Shown in pieces: positions 31,891-39,219 of a DNA stretch of 64,000 nt (position 1 is its first letter; the number at the start of each line of letters is the position of its first letter). The position numbers and the translations under genes were made by a program. The notes under the pieces are model-generated. The model saw only the letters and a list, made by a program, of their open reading frames with translations, was not told where the DNA came from and did not search any database. The stretch is taken from NCBI RefSeq assembly GCF_900459175.1, contig NZ_UHFA01000002.1:1116001-1180000 (forward strand). Reading direction: 5' to 3'. The DNA comes from Streptococcus downei MFe28. GTDB taxonomy: Bacteria > Bacillota > Bacilli > Lactobacillales > Streptococcaceae.

Positions 31891-33507
31891 ATGACAATTT
31901 ATAATATCAATTTAGGAATTGGCTGGGCCTCCAGCGGGGTTGAGTATGCCCAGGCCTACCGCTCCAAAGTCTTTAAAAATCTTGGACTGGATGCCAAGTT
32001 TGTCTTTACCGATTTTTTCAGCCAGGATAATATCGTTGACATGACCCGCAATGTCGGTTTTAGTGATGACCAGATTATCTGGCTCTATAGTTACTTTACC
32101 GACCAAGAGCCAGCACCGACCACCCTGACCGAAAGCGACCTCAAGGCTCAGTTTACCAGAGAAATTACCAAGGTTGACCGTGAAGACAAGCTGGTTCGTT
32201 TCTATTTTGGCAATCGCGATTTTGCCACGGCCTATTATTGTCGCCACAGCAAGGAAATCATCCATCGAATTGAATTCGTTTCCAATGGGAATCTGGTTCG
32301 CAAGGATTTCTACAATAATGGCAAGACCTTGTCCTTTACAGAATTTTACGCCCCCAAGGATAATGCGGCCAAGCTCTACAAGCGGACCTTTTACAATCTC
32401 AACGGTAGTGTGGCCTATGATGAGATTACCGATGGGGACCAGCCTTTCTATCGCTTTCCCAATCGGATTCTCTACTCCAAGGAAGAATTGGTCGCCTACT
32501 TTATGGAAAAATTGGCCCTGAGCGCTGATGACTTGGTCCTTCTTGACCGCTCAACCGGTATCGGACAAGCAGTCTTTCGTCAGGTTAAGCCAGCCAAGCT
32601 GGGCGTGGTGGTTCATGCCGAGCACTATAGTGAAAATGGCACCAATGCCAACTCGGTCCTTTGGAATAACTACTATGACTTCCAGTTTACCAATGCTGAT
32701 AGTGTCGATGTCTTTATCGTGGCTACTGACCGCCAAAAAGAAATCCTCAGTCAACAGTTCCTGATTTATAAGCATCAGGAGCCTAGGATTGTTACTATTC
32801 CGGTCGGTTCTCTTGATGAAATCAAGGAGCCTAAGAGTCCACGGATTCCTTTCTCGGTCATGACAGCCTCTCGTTTGGCTACCGAAAAACATGTTGACTG
32901 GCTGATTGAAGCTGTCGTTGAAGCCCATGAAGTGGTACCAGATATTAACTTTGACATTTATGGTTCTGGTAGTGAAGAAGCCAAGTTGCGGCAAATCATT
33001 GAAGAAAAGGGGGCCAAGGACTATATCCAGCTTCTGGGTCACCAGGATTTGAGCCACACCTATATGCACCACGAGGTCTATCTCTCGGGCTCCAAGAGTG
33101 AAGGTTTTGGCCTGACCCTGATGGAGGCTATTGGTTCCGGTCTTCCTCTGATTGGCTTTGATGCCCGCTACGGTAATCAGAACTTTATTAAGGACGAAGA
33201 AAATGGCTACCTGATTCCCATTTCAGAATTGGATACCGACCAGGAAATTGTCGAAAGCCTCAGTACCAAGATTGTCCAAATTTTCACCTTGGCCAATCTG
33301 GACAGCATGCACCGAGTATCTTACGACCTAGCCAAGAACTATCTAACCGACAAGGTCGAAGCCAAGTGGCAGCAACTGATTGCAGACCTGATTCAGCCAC
33401 AGCCTTCGGCCCTAGACAAGAGTCAGACTGCTGAGGCCAGTCAGTCCCAGGATAAGGACCAAAAGGATGAGACCGACCCGACCAAAGAGAAGGAGCTTGA
33501 GCAATGA
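31891..33507 (+). CDS. gtfA: GtfA-like O-GlcNAc transferase for serine-rich surface proteins
   Basis: 538 residues. The start chosen is the ATG at 31891 (MTIYNINLGIGWASSGVEY), which matches the family start exactly; the ATG 33 bases earlier adds an unrelated tail. The GT4/GT-B catalytic half is clear: ASRLATEKHVDWLI, DIYGSGSEEAKL, and SKSEGFGLTLMEAIGSGLPLIGFD (E-x7-E type). GtfA with GtfB adds the first GlcNAc to Ser/Thr of serine-rich repeat adhesins in the cytoplasm. Residues after about 505 form a charged tail (Gln, Ser, Lys, Asp, Glu) not usual for GtfA. GtfB overlaps by four bases. Confidence 0.93.
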   Translation: MTIYNINLGIGWASSGVEYAQAYRSKVFKNLGLDAKFVFTDFFSQDNIVDMTRNVGFSDDQIIWLYSYFTDQEPAPTTLTESDLKAQFTREITKVDREDKLVRFYFGNRDFATAYYCRHSKEIIHRIEFVSNGNLVRKDFYNNGKTLSFTEFYAPKDNAAKLYKRTFYNLNGSVAYDEITDGDQPFYRFPNRILYSKEELVAYFMEKLALSADDLVLLDRSTGIGQAVFRQVKPAKLGVVVHAEHYSENGTNANSVLWNNYYDFQFTNADSVDVFIVATDRQKEILSQQFLIYKHQEPRIVTIPVGSLDEIKEPKSPRIPFSVMTASRLATEKHVDWLIEAVVEAHEVVPDINFDIYGSGSEEAKLRQIIEEKGAKDYIQLLGHQDLSHTYMHHEVYLSGSKSEGFGLTLMEAIGSGLPLIGFDARYGNQNFIKDEENGYLIPISELDTDQEIVESLSTKIVQIFTLANLDSMHRVSYDLAKNYLTDKVEAKWQQLIADLIQPQPSALDKSQTAEASQSQDKDQKDETDPTKEKELEQ

Positions 33508-35672
33508 TTAACCTTTTTGAAAATTATAATCAAGACAGCTGGGACCTCCATTATTCCCTCATCCTGTCGGGCTATCAAAATACTACCATTGCCATCAACG
33601 ACAATGGTTTCCTGCCTGATGATGTGACCTCTCCCTTCCTCTTTTTCACCGGCTTTGTCAATGCCACAGGCAAGCCTCTGCATTTCAATGAGATTCCTGT
33701 GCCTAAGTTTTGGGAAATCAAGGCCACCAATTCCAGCGGTCAAATTTTTGACCTCAATAAAAAACGGGCCAACATCCATTTCTCTAAGCCAACTCACAAT
33801 CGCTTTGTCCAATCGGTTGACTGGCTGGACGAGGCGGGCAAGATTCGCTCGACCGACCACTACAATAAGTACGGTTACCGTTTTGCCCAAACCATCTACA
33901 ATCGTGATAGTCAAGCCGTTCAGAAGTCCTATTACGACAAGTCTGGCAAGGAAGTTCTGATGGAAAACTATGTGACTGGCGATTTGGTTTTGGAGCACGA
34001 AGGCAAGATTTATATCTTCAAGTCCAAGGCTGATTTTGTCACCTACTATATCCAGGCTTCAGGTTACGATTTGGACCGAATCATTTTTAACACCTTGGGT
34101 CTTCCCTTCCTAGTCAAATACCAACTCCACCAAGAAGGCGATGACGTCCTTTTCTGGCAGGAGCCCATTGGCGATAGCCTGCCTTATAATATGCAGCTCC
34201 TCCTCAAGCCAGATGCAGAGCGCAAAACCAAGATTATCGTCCAGGATGCCAATACCTACGAGAAAATCTTGAGGATGGTGACCCCAGAGCAAAGGGAAGC
34301 CTTCACCTATGTCGGCCTCCTCTATCCTTTCCAAAGGGATAATCAGGCCCGCAAGGAAGCCTTGATTTTGACCAATTCTGACCAGTTGGATTATGTAGAA
34401 AATATCATTGAAGATTTCCCGGACATGACCCTGCATATTGCGGCCATTACGGAAATGTCCAGCAGGCTCCTCAGTCTGGGGCGCTTCAGCAATGTCCACC
34501 TCTATCCTAATGTGACCAATATGACGGTCCGCCAGCTCTTTGGTCGTTCGGATATCTATCTGGACATCAACCAGGGCAATGAGATTCTTTCGGCCATTCG
34601 GACAGCCTTTGAAAGTCGCCAGTTGATTATGGGCTTTAAGGAGCGGATGCACAATCCACGCTACTCGGCACCAGAGTTCTTCTTTGACCTGGGCAATTAT
34701 GCTAGCTTTAGAGATAAGCTCCGCAATGTACTGGGCAATCGAGCAGCAATTACCCTGGATCTCCAGGCCCAATACAAGGCAGCCAACCTAGCCTTGCCAG
34801 CAGACTACCGTCGGGAGCTGGGAGAGCCTGCCCCAAGACCAGTCGCAGAAGCCAAGTCCCAAGTCCAAGAGACAGTTGTCCCAACCAATCCATCTCCTGA
34901 AAGTCAAGAAAAAGAAGATTTCCCAACTCAAGAAGATGCGCAAGTTGACCAAACTCTTGAGACCCATGGAGTAGCCCCAGAAGCTGGGCAAACCCCTGTC
35001 AATCAGGAGAAACCAGCCGGACAAACCTTATCCCCTGATAATCAGAAAGCAAGTGGTGGAACTCCCCAGTCACCTGAAAGGCAAAGCGAGGCTCTAGGAG
35101 ATCAACCGACCCCTGAGAACCAAGAAGGACCTCTTGAAGCTGGTCAGATTCCCCCAGTTGAGGAAGTGGGCACAGATGGGTTAGAGCTAGGAGAGGAAGA
35201 GCAATCGGTCCAAACTGGCCAAAATCCATCCCTTGAAGCCAAAGAGTCTTTACAAGAAACAATGGCTAGTCCAGCCCTTGAAGAAGCCCCCACATATCTT
35301 CAAACAGATGAGGCAGATGACCAAGCCAACCGAAATCTTAAGCTAGACCTTTCGCTAAATCCAGAGATGGCTGACACTCAAGCAGTCCCAAACCTTGAGG
35401 CGCAAGAGTTTGTCCTAGGGCAAGACTTGCCAGCTGACCAAGAGGAGCCATCCATCCAGGAGCAGGTCTCCACCCTCCTCAAAGATGAAGAAAACACCTA
35501 CACCTTTGATTTATCTCAGGAGGTTTCTCTAGACGATGAACAAGTGGTAGAGTATTCGGCTCCTAACCTTGAAGATGTGGAACTAGAAGACTCCGAGCAA
35601 GATGACTCAGTCGAGCAACCTTCTGTTGACCTAGAGCCCAAGACCGTGGAAAGGGAAACTCCAGCAGATTAG
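33504..35672 (+). CDS. gtfB: GtfB-like glycosylation chaperone with a long acidic C-terminal extension
   Basis: 722 residues; the ATG overlaps the gtfA stop. Residues 1 to about 440 match GtfB: DLHYSLILSGYQNTTI, RFVQSVDWLDEAGKI, TDHYNKYGYRFA, ILTNSDQLDYVEN and YLDINQGNEILSAIRTAFE. GtfB is the catalytically dead partner that recognises partly glycosylated acceptor and activates GtfA. Residues 440-722 are unusual: a Pro/Gln/Glu-rich, Lys-poor, low-complexity acidic segment with no domain I recognise; ordinary GtfB ends near 440-450. No serine-rich repeat protein, secA2, secY2 or asp gene is in the window, so the partner substrate must be elsewhere. Confidence 0.9.
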   Translation: MINLFENYNQDSWDLHYSLILSGYQNTTIAINDNGFLPDDVTSPFLFFTGFVNATGKPLHFNEIPVPKFWEIKATNSSGQIFDLNKKRANIHFSKPTHNRFVQSVDWLDEAGKIRSTDHYNKYGYRFAQTIYNRDSQAVQKSYYDKSGKEVLMENYVTGDLVLEHEGKIYIFKSKADFVTYYIQASGYDLDRIIFNTLGLPFLVKYQLHQEGDDVLFWQEPIGDSLPYNMQLLLKPDAERKTKIIVQDANTYEKILRMVTPEQREAFTYVGLLYPFQRDNQARKEALILTNSDQLDYVENIIEDFPDMTLHIAAITEMSSRLLSLGRFSNVHLYPNVTNMTVRQLFGRSDIYLDINQGNEILSAIRTAFESRQLIMGFKERMHNPRYSAPEFFFDLGNYASFRDKLRNVLGNRAAITLDLQAQYKAANLALPADYRRELGEPAPRPVAEAKSQVQETVVPTNPSPESQEKEDFPTQEDAQVDQTLETHGVAPEAGQTPVNQEKPAGQTLSPDNQKASGGTPQSPERQSEALGDQPTPENQEGPLEAGQIPPVEEVGTDGLELGEEEQSVQTGQNPSLEAKESLQETMASPALEEAPTYLQTDEADDQANRNLKLDLSLNPEMADTQAVPNLEAQEFVLGQDLPADQEEPSIQEQVSTLLKDEENTYTFDLSQEVSLDDEQVVEYSAPNLEDVELEDSEQDDSVEQPSVDLEPKTVERETPAD

Positions 35673-35685
35673 CCAGATTAAAGAT

Positions 35686-35718
35686 GAAAAAAGCAATCCA
35701 AATTGGGTTGCTTTTTTA
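35686..35718 (+). terminator. Intrinsic terminator after gtfB
   Basis: AAAAAGCAATCC pairs with GGGTTGCTTTTT (one G-T pair) around AAATT and ends in T residues. It separates the gtfAB transcript from the restriction-modification locus. Confidence 0.9.
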
Positions 35719-35765
35719 TATGATTAATGAGAAATATAGTGTCATCTAGTTTTATTTAAGTATGA

Positions 35766-35771
35766 TATAAT
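35766..35771 (+). promoter_or_regulatory. Extended -10 promoter of the leader/restriction-modification transcript
   Basis: TGATATAAT (box 35766-35771) is a consensus extended -10. Transcription would begin near 35778, giving about 97 bases before the leader ORF. This is the only good promoter between the gtfB terminator and the endonuclease gene. Confidence 0.8.
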
Positions 35772-35874
35772 AAAAAAGCTAGTTAAGAAAGATAAGTTTT
35801 TGAGCTTTGAAAGTTAATTTGACGAGAGAAAAAATTCTTTTTTTAAAAAAATATTATGTCATGAGGAGAATGCC

Positions 35875-36048
35875 ATGCTACAATCATTAGCACAGCACAG
35901 CACAGCACAGCACAGCACAGCACAGCACAGCACAGCACAGCACAGCACAGCACAGCACTTAGTCAAGGTTAATTCGTTAACCTCTTTTTATGATACAAAA
36001 AATATAGCAGAGCACACTCTATTAGTGTGTTCTGCTTTTTGTGTCTGA
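35875..36048 (+). CDS. Repeat-containing leader peptide ORF upstream of the HindIII-like genes
   Basis: 57 codons. It starts with ATG behind AGGAG at 6-base spacing, one of the best initiation sites locally, and encodes MLQSL, then (AQHST) repeats generated by the AGCAC pentanucleotide tract, then HLVKVNSLTSFYDTKN and a hydrophobic Cys-containing end (LLVCSAFCV). The stop TGA (36046-36048) abuts the endonuclease ribosome-binding site. The last third of the ORF runs through the terminator stem at 36007-36040. If the number of AGCAC units changes by one or two, the frame meets TAG at 35960 or TAA at 35970 instead. The peptide has no recognisable family. I infer that the act of translating it matters more than the product. 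Confidence 0.7.
   Translation: MLQSLAQHSTAQHSTAQHSTAQHSTAQHLVKVNSLTSFYDTKNIAEHTLLVCSAFCV
35889..35958 (+). repeat. Pentanucleotide microsatellite, fourteen AGCAC units
   Basis: Exactly 14 uninterrupted copies of AGCAC (70 bp). It lies 14 bases inside the leader ORF. Tracts of this type change length by slipped-strand mispairing, and five-base units always shift the frame. Confidence 0.98.
36007..36040 (+). terminator. Intrinsic terminator/attenuator between the leader repeat and the endonuclease gene
   Basis: GCAGAGCACACT (36007-36018) pairs with AGTGTGTTCTGC (36024-36035): 12 bp, one G-T pair, 5-base loop, followed by TTTTT (36036-36040). It lies between the promoter and the gene, so it must be bypassed for expression. 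It is inside the last part of the leader ORF when 14 repeat units are present. Confidence 0.88.
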
Positions 36049-36061
36049 AAGGAGAATAACG

Positions 36062-36994
36062 ATGAATAAAAAAGAGGATAAAAATATAGAAAAATCTACT
36101 TTTCAAAAATTACTTTGCCTAATTCACGAATTATCAACTTCTAGTTTGGATTTTAAAAAGTCAAGTGAACAATTGGAAAGTTTTATTAATCAACAGTCCA
36201 ATAAAGGTATGGTTGAGTTGGTTCGTTCCATTGGAATTTTACCAGAAGCAATAAAAACAAGTTCTTCCCAAGAAAAACTTTTCTCAAAAGCTGGGGATAT
36301 TGTTCTTTCGAGAGCTTTACAACTATTGAATTTGAATGCTAAGCCCTTAGAAGAGAGGGGAAATGCTGGTGATGTTGTCGCACAATCCGTTGAATACAAT
36401 TATGGATTAGTGGCAGATGCGAAATCATTTAGGTTGAGCCGTACGGCGAAAAATCAGAAAGATTTTAAAGTAAAAGCCCTTAGTGAGTGGAGAGGAGATA
36501 AGGACTATGCCGTCCTAGTAGCACCATTTTTTCAATATCCAACCAAAAATAGTCAGATTTTTAAACAGTCTTTGGATGAGAATGTTTTGCTCTTTAGTTG
36601 GGAACATTTATCGGTTTTACTACAATTAGATATTACAGAAACTTCCACATTTACCCTTGAACAGCTTTGGAATTTTCCATTGAAGCATAGCAAAAAGACG
36701 ACAGTTTATAGTTCCGAAAGTAATTTTATGACAGAGTTTAATAATTACTTTATTGAACTATTTAAATTGGAAAGAAGTCGACTTCATGAGTTACTACAAG
36801 AAGAGATATTGAACATTAAACTAAGATCAAATGATGAAAGTGATCACTGGAAACAGGAGATTGAAAGAGTAAAATCATTGACTAAAGATGAAGCCATAGA
36901 AGAGCTTTTGAAAGAAATTAATATCTCTGCAAAATTAAACACTATTAATAAATTTGTTGAGGGGCTAGAAAATGAAGATCGATTGTTTTTATAA
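36062..36994 (+). CDS. HindIII-like type II restriction endonuclease
   Basis: 310 residues from the ATG at 36062 behind AAAGGAG; a GTG at 36041 is in frame but would bury this site. The sequence closely matches what I remember of R.HindIII (300 residues) over its whole length, for example ELVRSIGILPEAIK, EKLFSKAGDIVL, LVADAKSFRLSRTAKN, APFFQYPT and LFSWEHL. The PD-(D/E)xK site is Asp104 (NAGDV) and Asp119-x-Lys121 (VADAK), equivalent with constant offset to Asp108, Asp123 and Lys125 of HindIII. It should therefore cut A/AGCTT as a dimer. The gene is AT-rich relative to its neighbours, suggesting transfer, and overlaps the methylase gene by 23 bases. Confidence 0.93.
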   Translation: MNKKEDKNIEKSTFQKLLCLIHELSTSSLDFKKSSEQLESFINQQSNKGMVELVRSIGILPEAIKTSSSQEKLFSKAGDIVLSRALQLLNLNAKPLEERGNAGDVVAQSVEYNYGLVADAKSFRLSRTAKNQKDFKVKALSEWRGDKDYAVLVAPFFQYPTKNSQIFKQSLDENVLLFSWEHLSVLLQLDITETSTFTLEQLWNFPLKHSKKTTVYSSESNFMTEFNNYFIELFKLERSRLHELLQEEILNIKLRSNDESDHWKQEIERVKSLTKDEAIEELLKEINISAKLNTINKFVEGLENEDRLFL

Positions 36995-37862
36995 TGAAGA
37001 TAGCATAGTAGGTTTAAGTAGGATTCCTACCAATTCAATTCATTCTATTATTTCAGACATTCCGTACGGTATCGATTATGATGAGTGGGATGTTCTTCAT
37101 TCTAATACGAATAGTGGATTGGGTGGTAGTTCTCTTTCACAAACTAAAAATAAACTTTTCAAAAGAAGAGGAAAACCATTGAATGGTTGGTCTGAAGCGG
37201 ACAAACAAAGACCACTAGAATATCAAAATTGGGTTTCTTCTTGGTCCAAAGAATGGTTCCGGGTTTTAAAGCCAGGGGGCAGTGCTTTTGTTTTTGCTGG
37301 AAGGAAATATTCACACAGAGTCATAATTGCTCTTGAAGAAGCTGGATTCACATTTAAAGATATGTTGAGTTGGGAGAGAGATAAGGCTCCGCATAGAGCA
37401 CAACGTCTGTCGAAGATTTATGAACGTAGAGGAGATTATGAAAATCAAAAAAATTGGGAGGGTTGGCGAGTTGCAAATTTAAGACCATTATTTGAGCCAA
37501 TATTATGGTTACAAAAGCCTTATAAAACAGGAGGTACAATTGCAAATAATGTCTTAGAAAATGGCGTAGGTGCATGGTATGAAGATGCCTTGAAAAAATG
37601 GAATATTAATCAAGACATGTCAAATCAGTCTAATATGATAAAGGTTGAGTTTCAACCAGATGATAGGAAATACCATACTACACAGAAGCCGATTAATTTA
37701 ATGAAGCTATTAGTGGAGCTTGTTACAGTAGAGGGGCAAGTTATTTTGGATCCATTTGCAGGTAGTGCTACAACTCTATTGGCAGCCAAAGAGCTTCATA
37801 GGAAATATATAGGATTTGAGAAAGATACAAAAATATTTGAAAGTGGATTAAGCAGATTGTAG
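36972..37862 (+). CDS. HindIII-like adenine-N6 DNA methyltransferase
   Basis: 296 residues. Motif IV is SDIPYG (residues 28-33, a DPPY variant) near the N-terminus and the SAM-binding motif I is LDPFAGSATTLLAAKE near the C-terminus, the order of the beta class of N6-adenine methyltransferases. KYHTTQKPINLMKLLVELVT precedes motif I as usual. It should methylate the same AAGCTT sites that the adjacent endonuclease cuts. It begins inside the endonuclease gene and has no promoter of its own that I can see, so both enzymes share the repeat-controlled transcript. Confidence 0.92.
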   Translation: MKIDCFYNEDSIVGLSRIPTNSIHSIISDIPYGIDYDEWDVLHSNTNSGLGGSSLSQTKNKLFKRRGKPLNGWSEADKQRPLEYQNWVSSWSKEWFRVLKPGGSAFVFAGRKYSHRVIIALEEAGFTFKDMLSWERDKAPHRAQRLSKIYERRGDYENQKNWEGWRVANLRPLFEPILWLQKPYKTGGTIANNVLENGVGAWYEDALKKWNINQDMSNQSNMIKVEFQPDDRKYHTTQKPINLMKLLVELVTVEGQVILDPFAGSATTLLAAKELHRKYIGFEKDTKIFESGLSRL

Positions 37863-37997
37863 TTTGCTGATTCTTTTCTCATATTACGATACTTCGCTAT
37901 AAAAAAATATTAGTTTTTTTAGAACTTATGCTTATTATGTTTTGAGAGAATATTTTGCGATAAATAGTATATTATTAGATTTTATATTGTATTCCTT

Positions 37998-38030
37998 AAG
38001 CTCCCCGCTTTCCATAGTCGGGGGCTTTTT
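37998..38030 (+). terminator. Intrinsic terminator after the restriction-modification genes
   Basis: AAGC(T)CCCCG pairs with CGGGGGCTT, one bulged base, followed by TTTTT. The 135 bases before it are AT-rich and without a gene. Confidence 0.85.
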
Positions 38031-38073
38031 CTTTCCATCAATCCCCTCCCTTAATTTCTCCTTCTGAAAATGC

Positions 38074-38079
38074 TATAAT
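38074..38079 (+). promoter_or_regulatory. Extended -10 box of hemW, only six bases before its ATG
   Basis: TGCTATAAT (box 38074-38079) is a perfect extended -10. The usual start of transcription seven bases downstream is the A of the hemW ATG (38086), and no Shine-Dalgarno sequence exists upstream. The transcript would be leaderless. Confidence 0.72.
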
Positions 38080-38085
38080 AGGGCC

Positions 38086-39219
38086 ATGTTTACTAAACCG
38101 ACCTCTGCCTATGTGCACATCCCTTTTTGCACGCAGATTTGCTACTATTGCGATTTTTCCAAGGTCTTCATCAAGAACCAGCCGGTGGATGATTATTTGC
38201 AGGCCTTGCTGGAGGAGTTTCGTTTTTATGATATAAAAAATTTGCGAACCCTCTATATTGGTGGCGGGACCCCGACCGCCCTGTCAGCCTCGCAGTTGGA
38301 GGTCCTTCTGTTGGGCTTACAGGAGAGTTTGGATTTGTCGGCTCTGGAAGAATTCACCATTGAAGCCAATCCCGGTGATTTGACGGCAGATAAGGTTGAA
38401 GTTTTGCAAAAATCAGCCGTCAACCGAGTCTCTCTGGGCGTGCAGACCTTTGATGATAAGGAGCTCAAGCGCATCGGCCGCAGTCACAATGAGGCTCAAA
38501 TTTACCAGTCGGTCTCAGCCCTCAAGCAGGCTGGTTTTGACAATATTTCCATCGACCTCATCTACGCCCTGCCAGGGCAAACCATGGATCAGGTCAAGAC
38601 CAATGTCAAAAAGGCTCTGGCTCTGGATATTCCCCACCTCAGTCTCTACAGTCTGATTCTGGAGAATCACACGGTCTTTATGAATAAGATGCGTCGTGGT
38701 CGGCTCCACCTGCCCAATGAAGATGTCGAGAGCGACATGTTCACCTATATTATTGACGAGCTGGAGAAACACGGCTTTGAGCACTACGAGATTTCCAATT
38801 TCACCAAGCCAGGCTACGAGAGCCGGCACAATCTGGTCTACTGGGATAATGTCGAGTATTACGGCCTAGGAGCAGGGGCTTCAGGCTATCTGGATGGTGT
38901 CCGCTACCGCAATCGTGGCCCTATTCAGCACTACCTCAAGGCCGTTGCGCAAGCCGGTCATGCTCGCTTGCATGAGGAAAAATTGACCAAGTCCGAGCAG
39001 ATGGAAGAGGAAATTTTCTTAGGCCTTCGCAAGAAATCAGGCATTTCTATCAATCGTTTTCAGGAAAAATTTCAAGAAGACTTCCAACAACGCTATGGTC
39101 AGATTGTGGCCGACTTGCTGGCTGACGGTCTCCTTCAAACTCAAGGCGACCAGATCCGCATGACCAAGCGAGGCCTGTTTTTAGGTGACACGGTGGCTGA
39201 AAAATTTTTCATTGACTAA
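38086..39219 (+). CDS. hemW: HemW-type radical SAM protein (formerly HemN-like)
   Basis: 377 residues. The radical SAM cluster motif is FCTQICYYCDF (CxxxCxxC) near residue 20, preceded by AYVHIP; GGGTPTALS and TIEANPGDL follow, and the HemN C-terminal domain has EEEIFLGLRKKSGI. Proteins with this Cys spacing and without the extra N-terminal part of HemN are haem-trafficking HemW rather than coproporphyrinogen dehydrogenase. The opening MFTKPTSAYVHIPFC fits the family start, so the ATG is right although it has no ribosome-binding site. The TAA stop is shared with the first base of repeat copy D. Confidence 0.9.
   Translation: MFTKPTSAYVHIPFCTQICYYCDFSKVFIKNQPVDDYLQALLEEFRFYDIKNLRTLYIGGGTPTALSASQLEVLLLGLQESLDLSALEEFTIEANPGDLTADKVEVLQKSAVNRVSLGVQTFDDKELKRIGRSHNEAQIYQSVSALKQAGFDNISIDLIYALPGQTMDQVKTNVKKALALDIPHLSLYSLILENHTVFMNKMRRGRLHLPNEDVESDMFTYIIDELEKHGFEHYEISNFTKPGYESRHNLVYWDNVEYYGLGAGASGYLDGVRYRNRGPIQHYLKAVAQAGHARLHEEKLTKSEQMEEEIFLGLRKKSGISINRFQEKFQEDFQQRYGQIVADLLADGLLQTQGDQIRMTKRGLFLGDTVAEKFFID

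Follow-up and report, generated by a model that had tools for sequence, protein, structure and literature searches.

A short leader ORF with 14 perfect AGCAC units separates a predicted promoter from a HindIII-family restriction-modification (R-M) operon in the 64,000-nt stretch of the Streptococcus downei MFe28 genome analysed here (the window), and we consider it probable, at about 80%, that this leader is a phase-variable, ribosome-controlled attenuator of the operon. Slipped-strand changes in the length of the tract would alter the frame in which the leader is read. At 14 units, or at a number differing from 14 by 3, 6 and so on, leader ribosomes would translate through both of the hairpins that follow the tract (H1 and H2), keep the terminator-like H2 from forming and stop beside the ribosome-binding site of the endonuclease gene (R), which would then be expressed, probably together with the methyltransferase gene (M). 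With one unit gained or lost, translation would end 43 or 33 nt before the terminator and H2 would be free to end transcription (the OFF state). Slippage, terminator activity, the effect of the ribosome and the joint switching of R and M are what we infer from this arrangement. Similar modules were found before R-M genes at 16 further Streptococcus loci, and leader attenuation of the type described for the pil1 pilus locus of S. gallolyticus appears, in our judgement, to be a recurrent switch for restriction systems.

All features of the window locus lie on the forward strand. R (36062..36994, 310 aa) matches PF09518 at 211 bits, is called REase_II by PADLOC and aligns with HindIII from the PDB at an E-value of 9.4e-124 (416 bits); M (36972..37862, 296 aa), a DNA methyltransferase gene with a PF01555 match and the PADLOC call MTase_II, starts 23 bp before the end of R. 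A PF09518 endonuclease followed by a DNA methyltransferase places the pair among the HindIII-family type II systems, and agrees with the first-pass annotation of a HindIII-like pair in which M overlaps R. The order and the overlap of the two genes are shared with the HindIII system of Haemophilus influenzae, whose endonuclease is 65% identical to R in the best segment, and from this likeness to HindIII the window system would be expected to cleave and methylate AAGCTT. Depletion of AAGCTT as a sign of long activity was not seen in the genome, which contains 849 such sites vs 387 TTCGAA. Among the 284 Streptococcus genomes there were two HindIII-family loci, that of the window and one in Streptococcus sp. 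SPS1 (L012:4880-6303); the latter is decayed, with R interrupted, M shortened and no repeat leader upstream. Neither of the two nearest relatives of R compared as DNA, namely SPS1 and one H. influenzae HindIII record (L011), has a repeat leader upstream of R, unlike the window. Searches with R retrieved eight viral contigs at 32–36% identity, 18 plasmids under 60% and no phage, and its protein cluster holds two sequences on five contigs. The operon is flanked upstream by a GtfA-type glycosyltransferase gene and gtfB (an accessory Sec glycosylation pair) and downstream by hemW, whose product shares 90% and 89% identity with HemW proteins named S. tangpeifui and S. criceti, in keeping with kinship to these species. 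GtfB (window 33504-35672) continues for about 286 aa beyond its TIGR02919 match, and this C-terminal extension is acidic by eye.

The leader ORF (35875..36048, 57 codons in the present repeat phase) begins at an ATG placed 6 nt after a ribosome-binding site, AGGAG (35864..35868), and contains the predicted phase-variation tract (35889..35958; 14.0 units at 100% match in a repeat scan), the sole such array in the 2.23-Mb genome according to a genome scan. In the present frame the leader ends at TGA (36046..36048), directly before the ribosome-binding site of R, AAGGAG (36049..36054), in the second frame at TAG (35960..35962) and in the third at TAA (35970..35972); the last two stops lie 43 and 33 nt before the H2 stem, the first 9 nt after it. 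Re-reading of the letters thus returned the same leader start and ribosome-binding site, the same count of exactly 14 units, the same three stops and the same signals for R (AAGGAG and ATG 36062) as had been proposed in the first-pass annotation. The extended -10 element proposed there, TGATATAAT, is likewise present, at 35763..35771, its status as a promoter being a prediction; so is that of the nearest hit of a promoter scan, GTGTCA-16-TATGAT at 35739-35766. An element TGNTATAAT was found 40-49 nt upstream of the leader start at eight other loci of the survey described below, and so at nine of the 15 with a visible start when the window is included. Altogether, 19 promoter-scan hits fell in 35000-39000 vs 8.4 expected. 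Further promoter-like hits lie at 35807-35835 and 35856-35884; since the latter overlaps the leader start, its transcripts would skip that start. Matches of this kind also lie inside R, and the best of the region, with 10 of 12, spans the R/M overlap (36966-36995), so that M could be partly independent of the switching of R, even though the layout suggests that R and M would switch together. A joint loss of R and M would risk unmethylated sites, which makes leaky expression of M in the OFF state a real possibility. A known Rfam cis-regulatory leader was rejected for this region, as a scan of 35600-36300 gave three matches up to E 1 and none at gathering score.

The layout has a close precedent. 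In pil1 of S. gallolyticus, the number of GCAGA repeats in a leader ORF decides whether ribosomes arrive at a premature terminator (PMC3894217, Danne et al. 2014). As reported there, expression is low in isolates whose leader ends 28 nt or more upstream of the hairpin, and high in those where it ends just short of the hairpin or runs through it; the effect is abolished by chloramphenicol or by a changed leader start, and deletion of one terminator arm locked the genes on (PMC3894217). The window leader, known from its sequence, shares with pil1/pil3 a pentanucleotide repeat in a translated leader, a terminator downstream and ribosome access that would depend on the frame. Its ORF joins a ribosome-binding site to a tandem repeat of non-triplet unit, as expected of a pil1-type leader, and at least one of its frames stops 28 nt or more before the candidate terminator while another passes it. 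As the layout and all three frames follow the pil1 rule, we counted them in favour of the attenuator, it being noted that the frame pattern of the window locus on its own has a null probability of 0.16 (shuffles) and is weak evidence. The two systems also differ: pil1 acts on pili and uses GCAGA, whereas the window leader stands before a restriction system, uses AGCAC and has a second hairpin after the tract. Furthermore, in the description of strain UCN34, one pil1 frame gives low and two give high expression (stop 4 bp before or within the hairpin), whereas of the window frames a single one passes the hairpin and the other two end well short of it.

A different precedent is offered by modS of S. 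suis, in which a GAGCA pentanucleotide repeat inside the ORF switches a type III DNA methyltransferase (PMC8125046, PMC6265453). By this analogy, and given loci of similar kind read by eye in the survey, the AGCAC tract could be an N-terminal extension of R that switches the frame of the enzyme itself, but this is very improbable: TAG 35960 and further stops upstream of the ATG close the R frame, and the open frame of the leader differs from that of R and ends at 36048, before R. Because the R frame is closed upstream, the repeat is not inside the enzyme gene; in contrast to ModS, it lies in a separate leader ORF whose frame differs from that of R. A fusion in the R frame was rejected on the same sequence grounds, unless ribosomes shift frame. 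It should be noted that GAGCA repeats just upstream of a mod gene, unjoined to it unless a 119-bp stretch is present, have also been reported (PMC6265453).

Folding and a terminator scan place an intrinsic-terminator-like hairpin, H2, at 36006..36040, between the leader repeat and R, as the pil1 model predicts; it has 13 pairs, a loop of five and a T run, with the stem at 36006-36036 (-20.2 kcal/mol) and T5 at 36036-36040, the first T of which forms the outer pair. The hairpin with five T of the first-pass annotation is thus retained, with one outer pair more than the 12 counted there. The other hairpin, H1 (35966..35989), absent from that description, follows the tract directly and consists of a 7-bp stem (35966-35983; -5.4 kcal/mol) with a TTCG loop, then C and T5. 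H1 may act as a pause or weak terminator; as a guess, a pause here might let polymerase and ribosome advance together. As to an RNA antiterminator formed between the AGCAC tract and a terminator arm, the full-leader fold leaves H2 intact, with 27 of the 70 tract bases paired, mostly inside the tract.

In order to see how far the layout extends, we scanned 284 Streptococcus species genomes for four GCACA or GCAGA units. Twenty-nine genomes matched, and one locus was fetched from each; at least 16 of these look by eye like in-gene repeats of type III mod, of the ModS kind, and the remainder include leader ORFs, likewise by eye. Reading of the flanks gave eight leader modules before R-M genes, window included. 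The other seven precede an IIG-like N6 methylase gene (G001), type III Mod and Res genes (G044), Mod and Res genes (G075), an N6 methylase gene with an HSDR_N domain (G183), an HsdM gene (G196a), a second HsdM gene, for which HsdS and HsdR were scanned too (G259), and an IIG-like gene (G196b). The gene start is less certain at G044 (scanned Mod reading from L128:501), whose leader is divided between two contigs and whose tail is followed by a first ORF of only 24 codons.

A covariance model was then built from the repeat-free tails of four modules and run on the same 284 genomes. At an E-value of 1e-3 or lower it matched 13 genomes, of which one (G002) was judged a chance match, and it yielded nine further distinct loci, with an N6_N4_Mtase domain in the downstream gene at all nine; the starts of these genes resemble that of the G075 Mod, the next gene in each case lying outside the domain scan. 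Since the tail model contains no repeat, nothing in the search presupposed a different unit, and yet the units had changed: six loci (G033, G108, G164, G265, G161 and G011) carry the 7-nt AGCAACA or close variants, one (G196c) has the 7-nt ATCAGTC with only two full units, and two (G266 and G256) have the 4-nt AGCA. The total is 17 loci in 15 of the 284 Streptococcus genomes, before HindIII, type I, IIG-like and type III R-M genes, and their units are 4, 5 or 7 nt long, that is, only lengths that shift the frame and never a multiple of 3. Dropped before these counts were G160 (a fossil leader), G044:C91 (a broken tail) and a second contig copy in G011, and dropped as chance were G274, G002, G038, G231, G269, G283, G044:C54, G406 and the viral contigs L221-L223; G326 (BREX) and G438 stand outside the 17.

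Each of the 17 loci has one or more frames that reach the R-M start (ending at -16, at -2 with a TAATG overlap, or at +5) and one or more that end no further than 12 nt from the tract. By a looser criterion (one frame ending at -20..+10 of the R-M start and another stopping no more than 15 nt from the tract), the count is again 17 of 17 vs 4.39 expected from dinucleotide shuffles of the tails, and an H1-type hairpin (6-7 pairs, then a T-rich stretch) directly after the tract is present at 17 of 17 vs 0.83 expected from shuffles; neither figure is a formal probability, since the cut-offs were set after the loci had been seen and the loci, being partly homologous, are not 17 independent tests. 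Among the 15 loci with a visible leader start, five (the window, G075, G183, G259 and G011) are now in the read-through frame and ten are not. H2 occurs in two styles. In 13 tails the ribosome-binding site lies inside H2, and in the window, G044 and G196b a terminator-like H2 leaves it outside. An alignment of 13 sister tails retains H2, 3 of the 19 predicted pairs showing compensatory changes; their consensus fold contains H2 and leaves out H1, an omission due in part to two rows in which H1 is misaligned. Given the two styles, some loci may have a transcriptional output stage and others a translational one.

This bears on an alternative that we regard as possible, though on balance doubtful, for the window: the switch might act mainly on translation of R, with the leader ribosome opening a stem that hides the R ribosome-binding site and then re-initiating; the hairpin would be just one portion of this stem. 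In favour of this, base pairing all but closes the R-M ribosome-binding site (P unpaired below 0.05) at 13 of the 17 loci, namely 12 of the 13 tails with an H2-embedded site and G183, and at 11 of the 17 its accessibility falls below that of all but 3% of 60 shuffles. In the commoner tail class (13 loci), a frame terminates either on TAATG or 5 nt inside the gene, and in the minimum-energy fold of the window leader CTCTTTTT is paired with the AAGGAG region. Against this, hiding of the site did not exceed chance at the window itself, where P unpaired is 0.20 vs 0.29 in shuffles (35% of 60 shuffles being as low) and H2 has a terminator signature, and elsewhere G266 is paired no more than its shuffles while G044, G196b and G256 are partly open. 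For the window, therefore, an output stage of the transcriptional style fits best.

The same comparison weighs on two other readings. Perfect repeats can persist without function, and the tract might be a neutral microsatellite or change only the length or stability of the 5'-UTR; the recurrence of differing 4-, 5- and 7-nt units at the same leader position, with frames that discriminate, makes this improbable. The leader peptide, which has a good start site and ribosome-binding site, might itself be a functional small protein, a suggestion to which we give very little weight, as neither the repeat unit nor the peptide sequence beyond it is constant from locus to locus. A protein search with the peptide matched the window alone, in a database that may omit short ORFs.

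Length variation was seen between G265 and G161, which have identical 83-nt tails and 31 vs 7 units. The same leader module, now with a CAAT unit, was found on three Enterococcus faecium plasmids typed as conjugative: NZ_LR135171.1 and NZ_LR135783.1 (L224 and L225; isolates E4227 and E4239) have nine units each and NZ_LR135436.1 (L226; isolate E8691) has three. In E4227 and E4239 the modules precede annotated genes for a site-specific DNA-methyltransferase and a DEAD/DEAH helicase; in E8691 the methyltransferase ORF is short (285 vs 561 codons) and ends near a downstream IS1216. All three leaders are in the read-through frame, and the tracts of nine and three units, differing by 24 nt, are in the same phase. 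In the wider order, four GCACA units matched 7 of 395 genomes, four of them outside Streptococcus, and none of those four matches was this R-M module; a tail model, R2, run on 178 genomes gave no convincing module outside Streptococcus.

From these loci we lean, with some reserve, towards the broader proposal that streptococci and enterococcal plasmids own a transferable, target-independent cassette, composed of a start-plus-repeat leader and two hairpins, which is placed before unrelated type I, II, IIG and III systems, in which the unit may be freely replaced as long as it is not a triplet, and by which whole defence operons, restriction included, would flip with the frame of the leader. The core idea of the first-pass annotation, a translated leader that acts through its repeat length on an attenuator before an R-M operon, gains support from pil1, where experiments have proved that the same layout works as such a switch (PMC3894217), and from the 17 Streptococcus loci and three Enterococcus plasmids with their differing non-triplet units. 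Its remark that this would be an unusual way to phase-vary a restriction system needs dividing: the mechanism has a precedent in pil1, which had not been named, and the novelty therefore lies in the use on restriction systems and in the recurrence.

Where it was present among the matches listed for leader-peptide phase variation, the pil1 paper came first. Among those listed for phase-variable R-M systems (titles and abstract starts, two repeat surveys of REBASE not being among them), none described a leader-switched system, and the word "leader" is absent from the parts used here of PMC8125046, PMC6265453 and PMC7394358 and of the reviews PMC12707154 and PMC11868660. Published counts of phase-variable systems refer to repeats in the enzyme genes (2% of hsdM, 7.9% of hsdS and 17.4% of mod, as quoted in PMC7394358), and most S. 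mitis strains are reported to carry one to four type III systems (PMC6722419). Such counts could overlook a switch borne by a leader, which lies outside the enzyme genes, and the proportion of switchable R-M systems in streptococci and enterococci may therefore be underestimated. If the proposal is correct, a short RNA element would provide bet-hedging of phage defence and DNA uptake, and the series of 4-, 5- and 7-nt repeats would constitute a natural experiment on frame-controlled attenuation.

Several further loci resemble the modules in part. The fossil leader in G160 (L143) has two AGCAC units and stands before a degraded stretch and a methylase-like ORF (by eye); it is perhaps a locked or dying switch. 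In G044:C91 (L227), a leader with a 7-nt repeat has a tail that is interrupted within H2 and continues into another gene, as if the R-M genes had been replaced. The sequences just upstream of the leader look similar, by eye, in L121, L133 and L144, and L133 has there a 92-aa ORF resembling a winged-helix regulator (by eye). In G438, two tracts of 11 GCACA units (L175 and L176) each lie beside an N run, one of them in a leader-like ORF; the L176 tract is followed by a terminator-like hairpin, and in neither case were the downstream genes recognised as R-M. In G326:C2 (L174), from a different family of the order, BrxC (PADLOC, 1222 bits) is preceded by a leader (MKAQHSTAQHST...) that has 33 and 10 GCACA units and whose longest frame stops 53 nt before that gene; a switch of similar kind may control this BREX defence operon. 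Finally, in G043 and G081 (L127 and L132), GCAGA leaders and a long hairpin precede long ORFs that may be surface or pilus genes; these loci resemble the S. gallolyticus pil loci.
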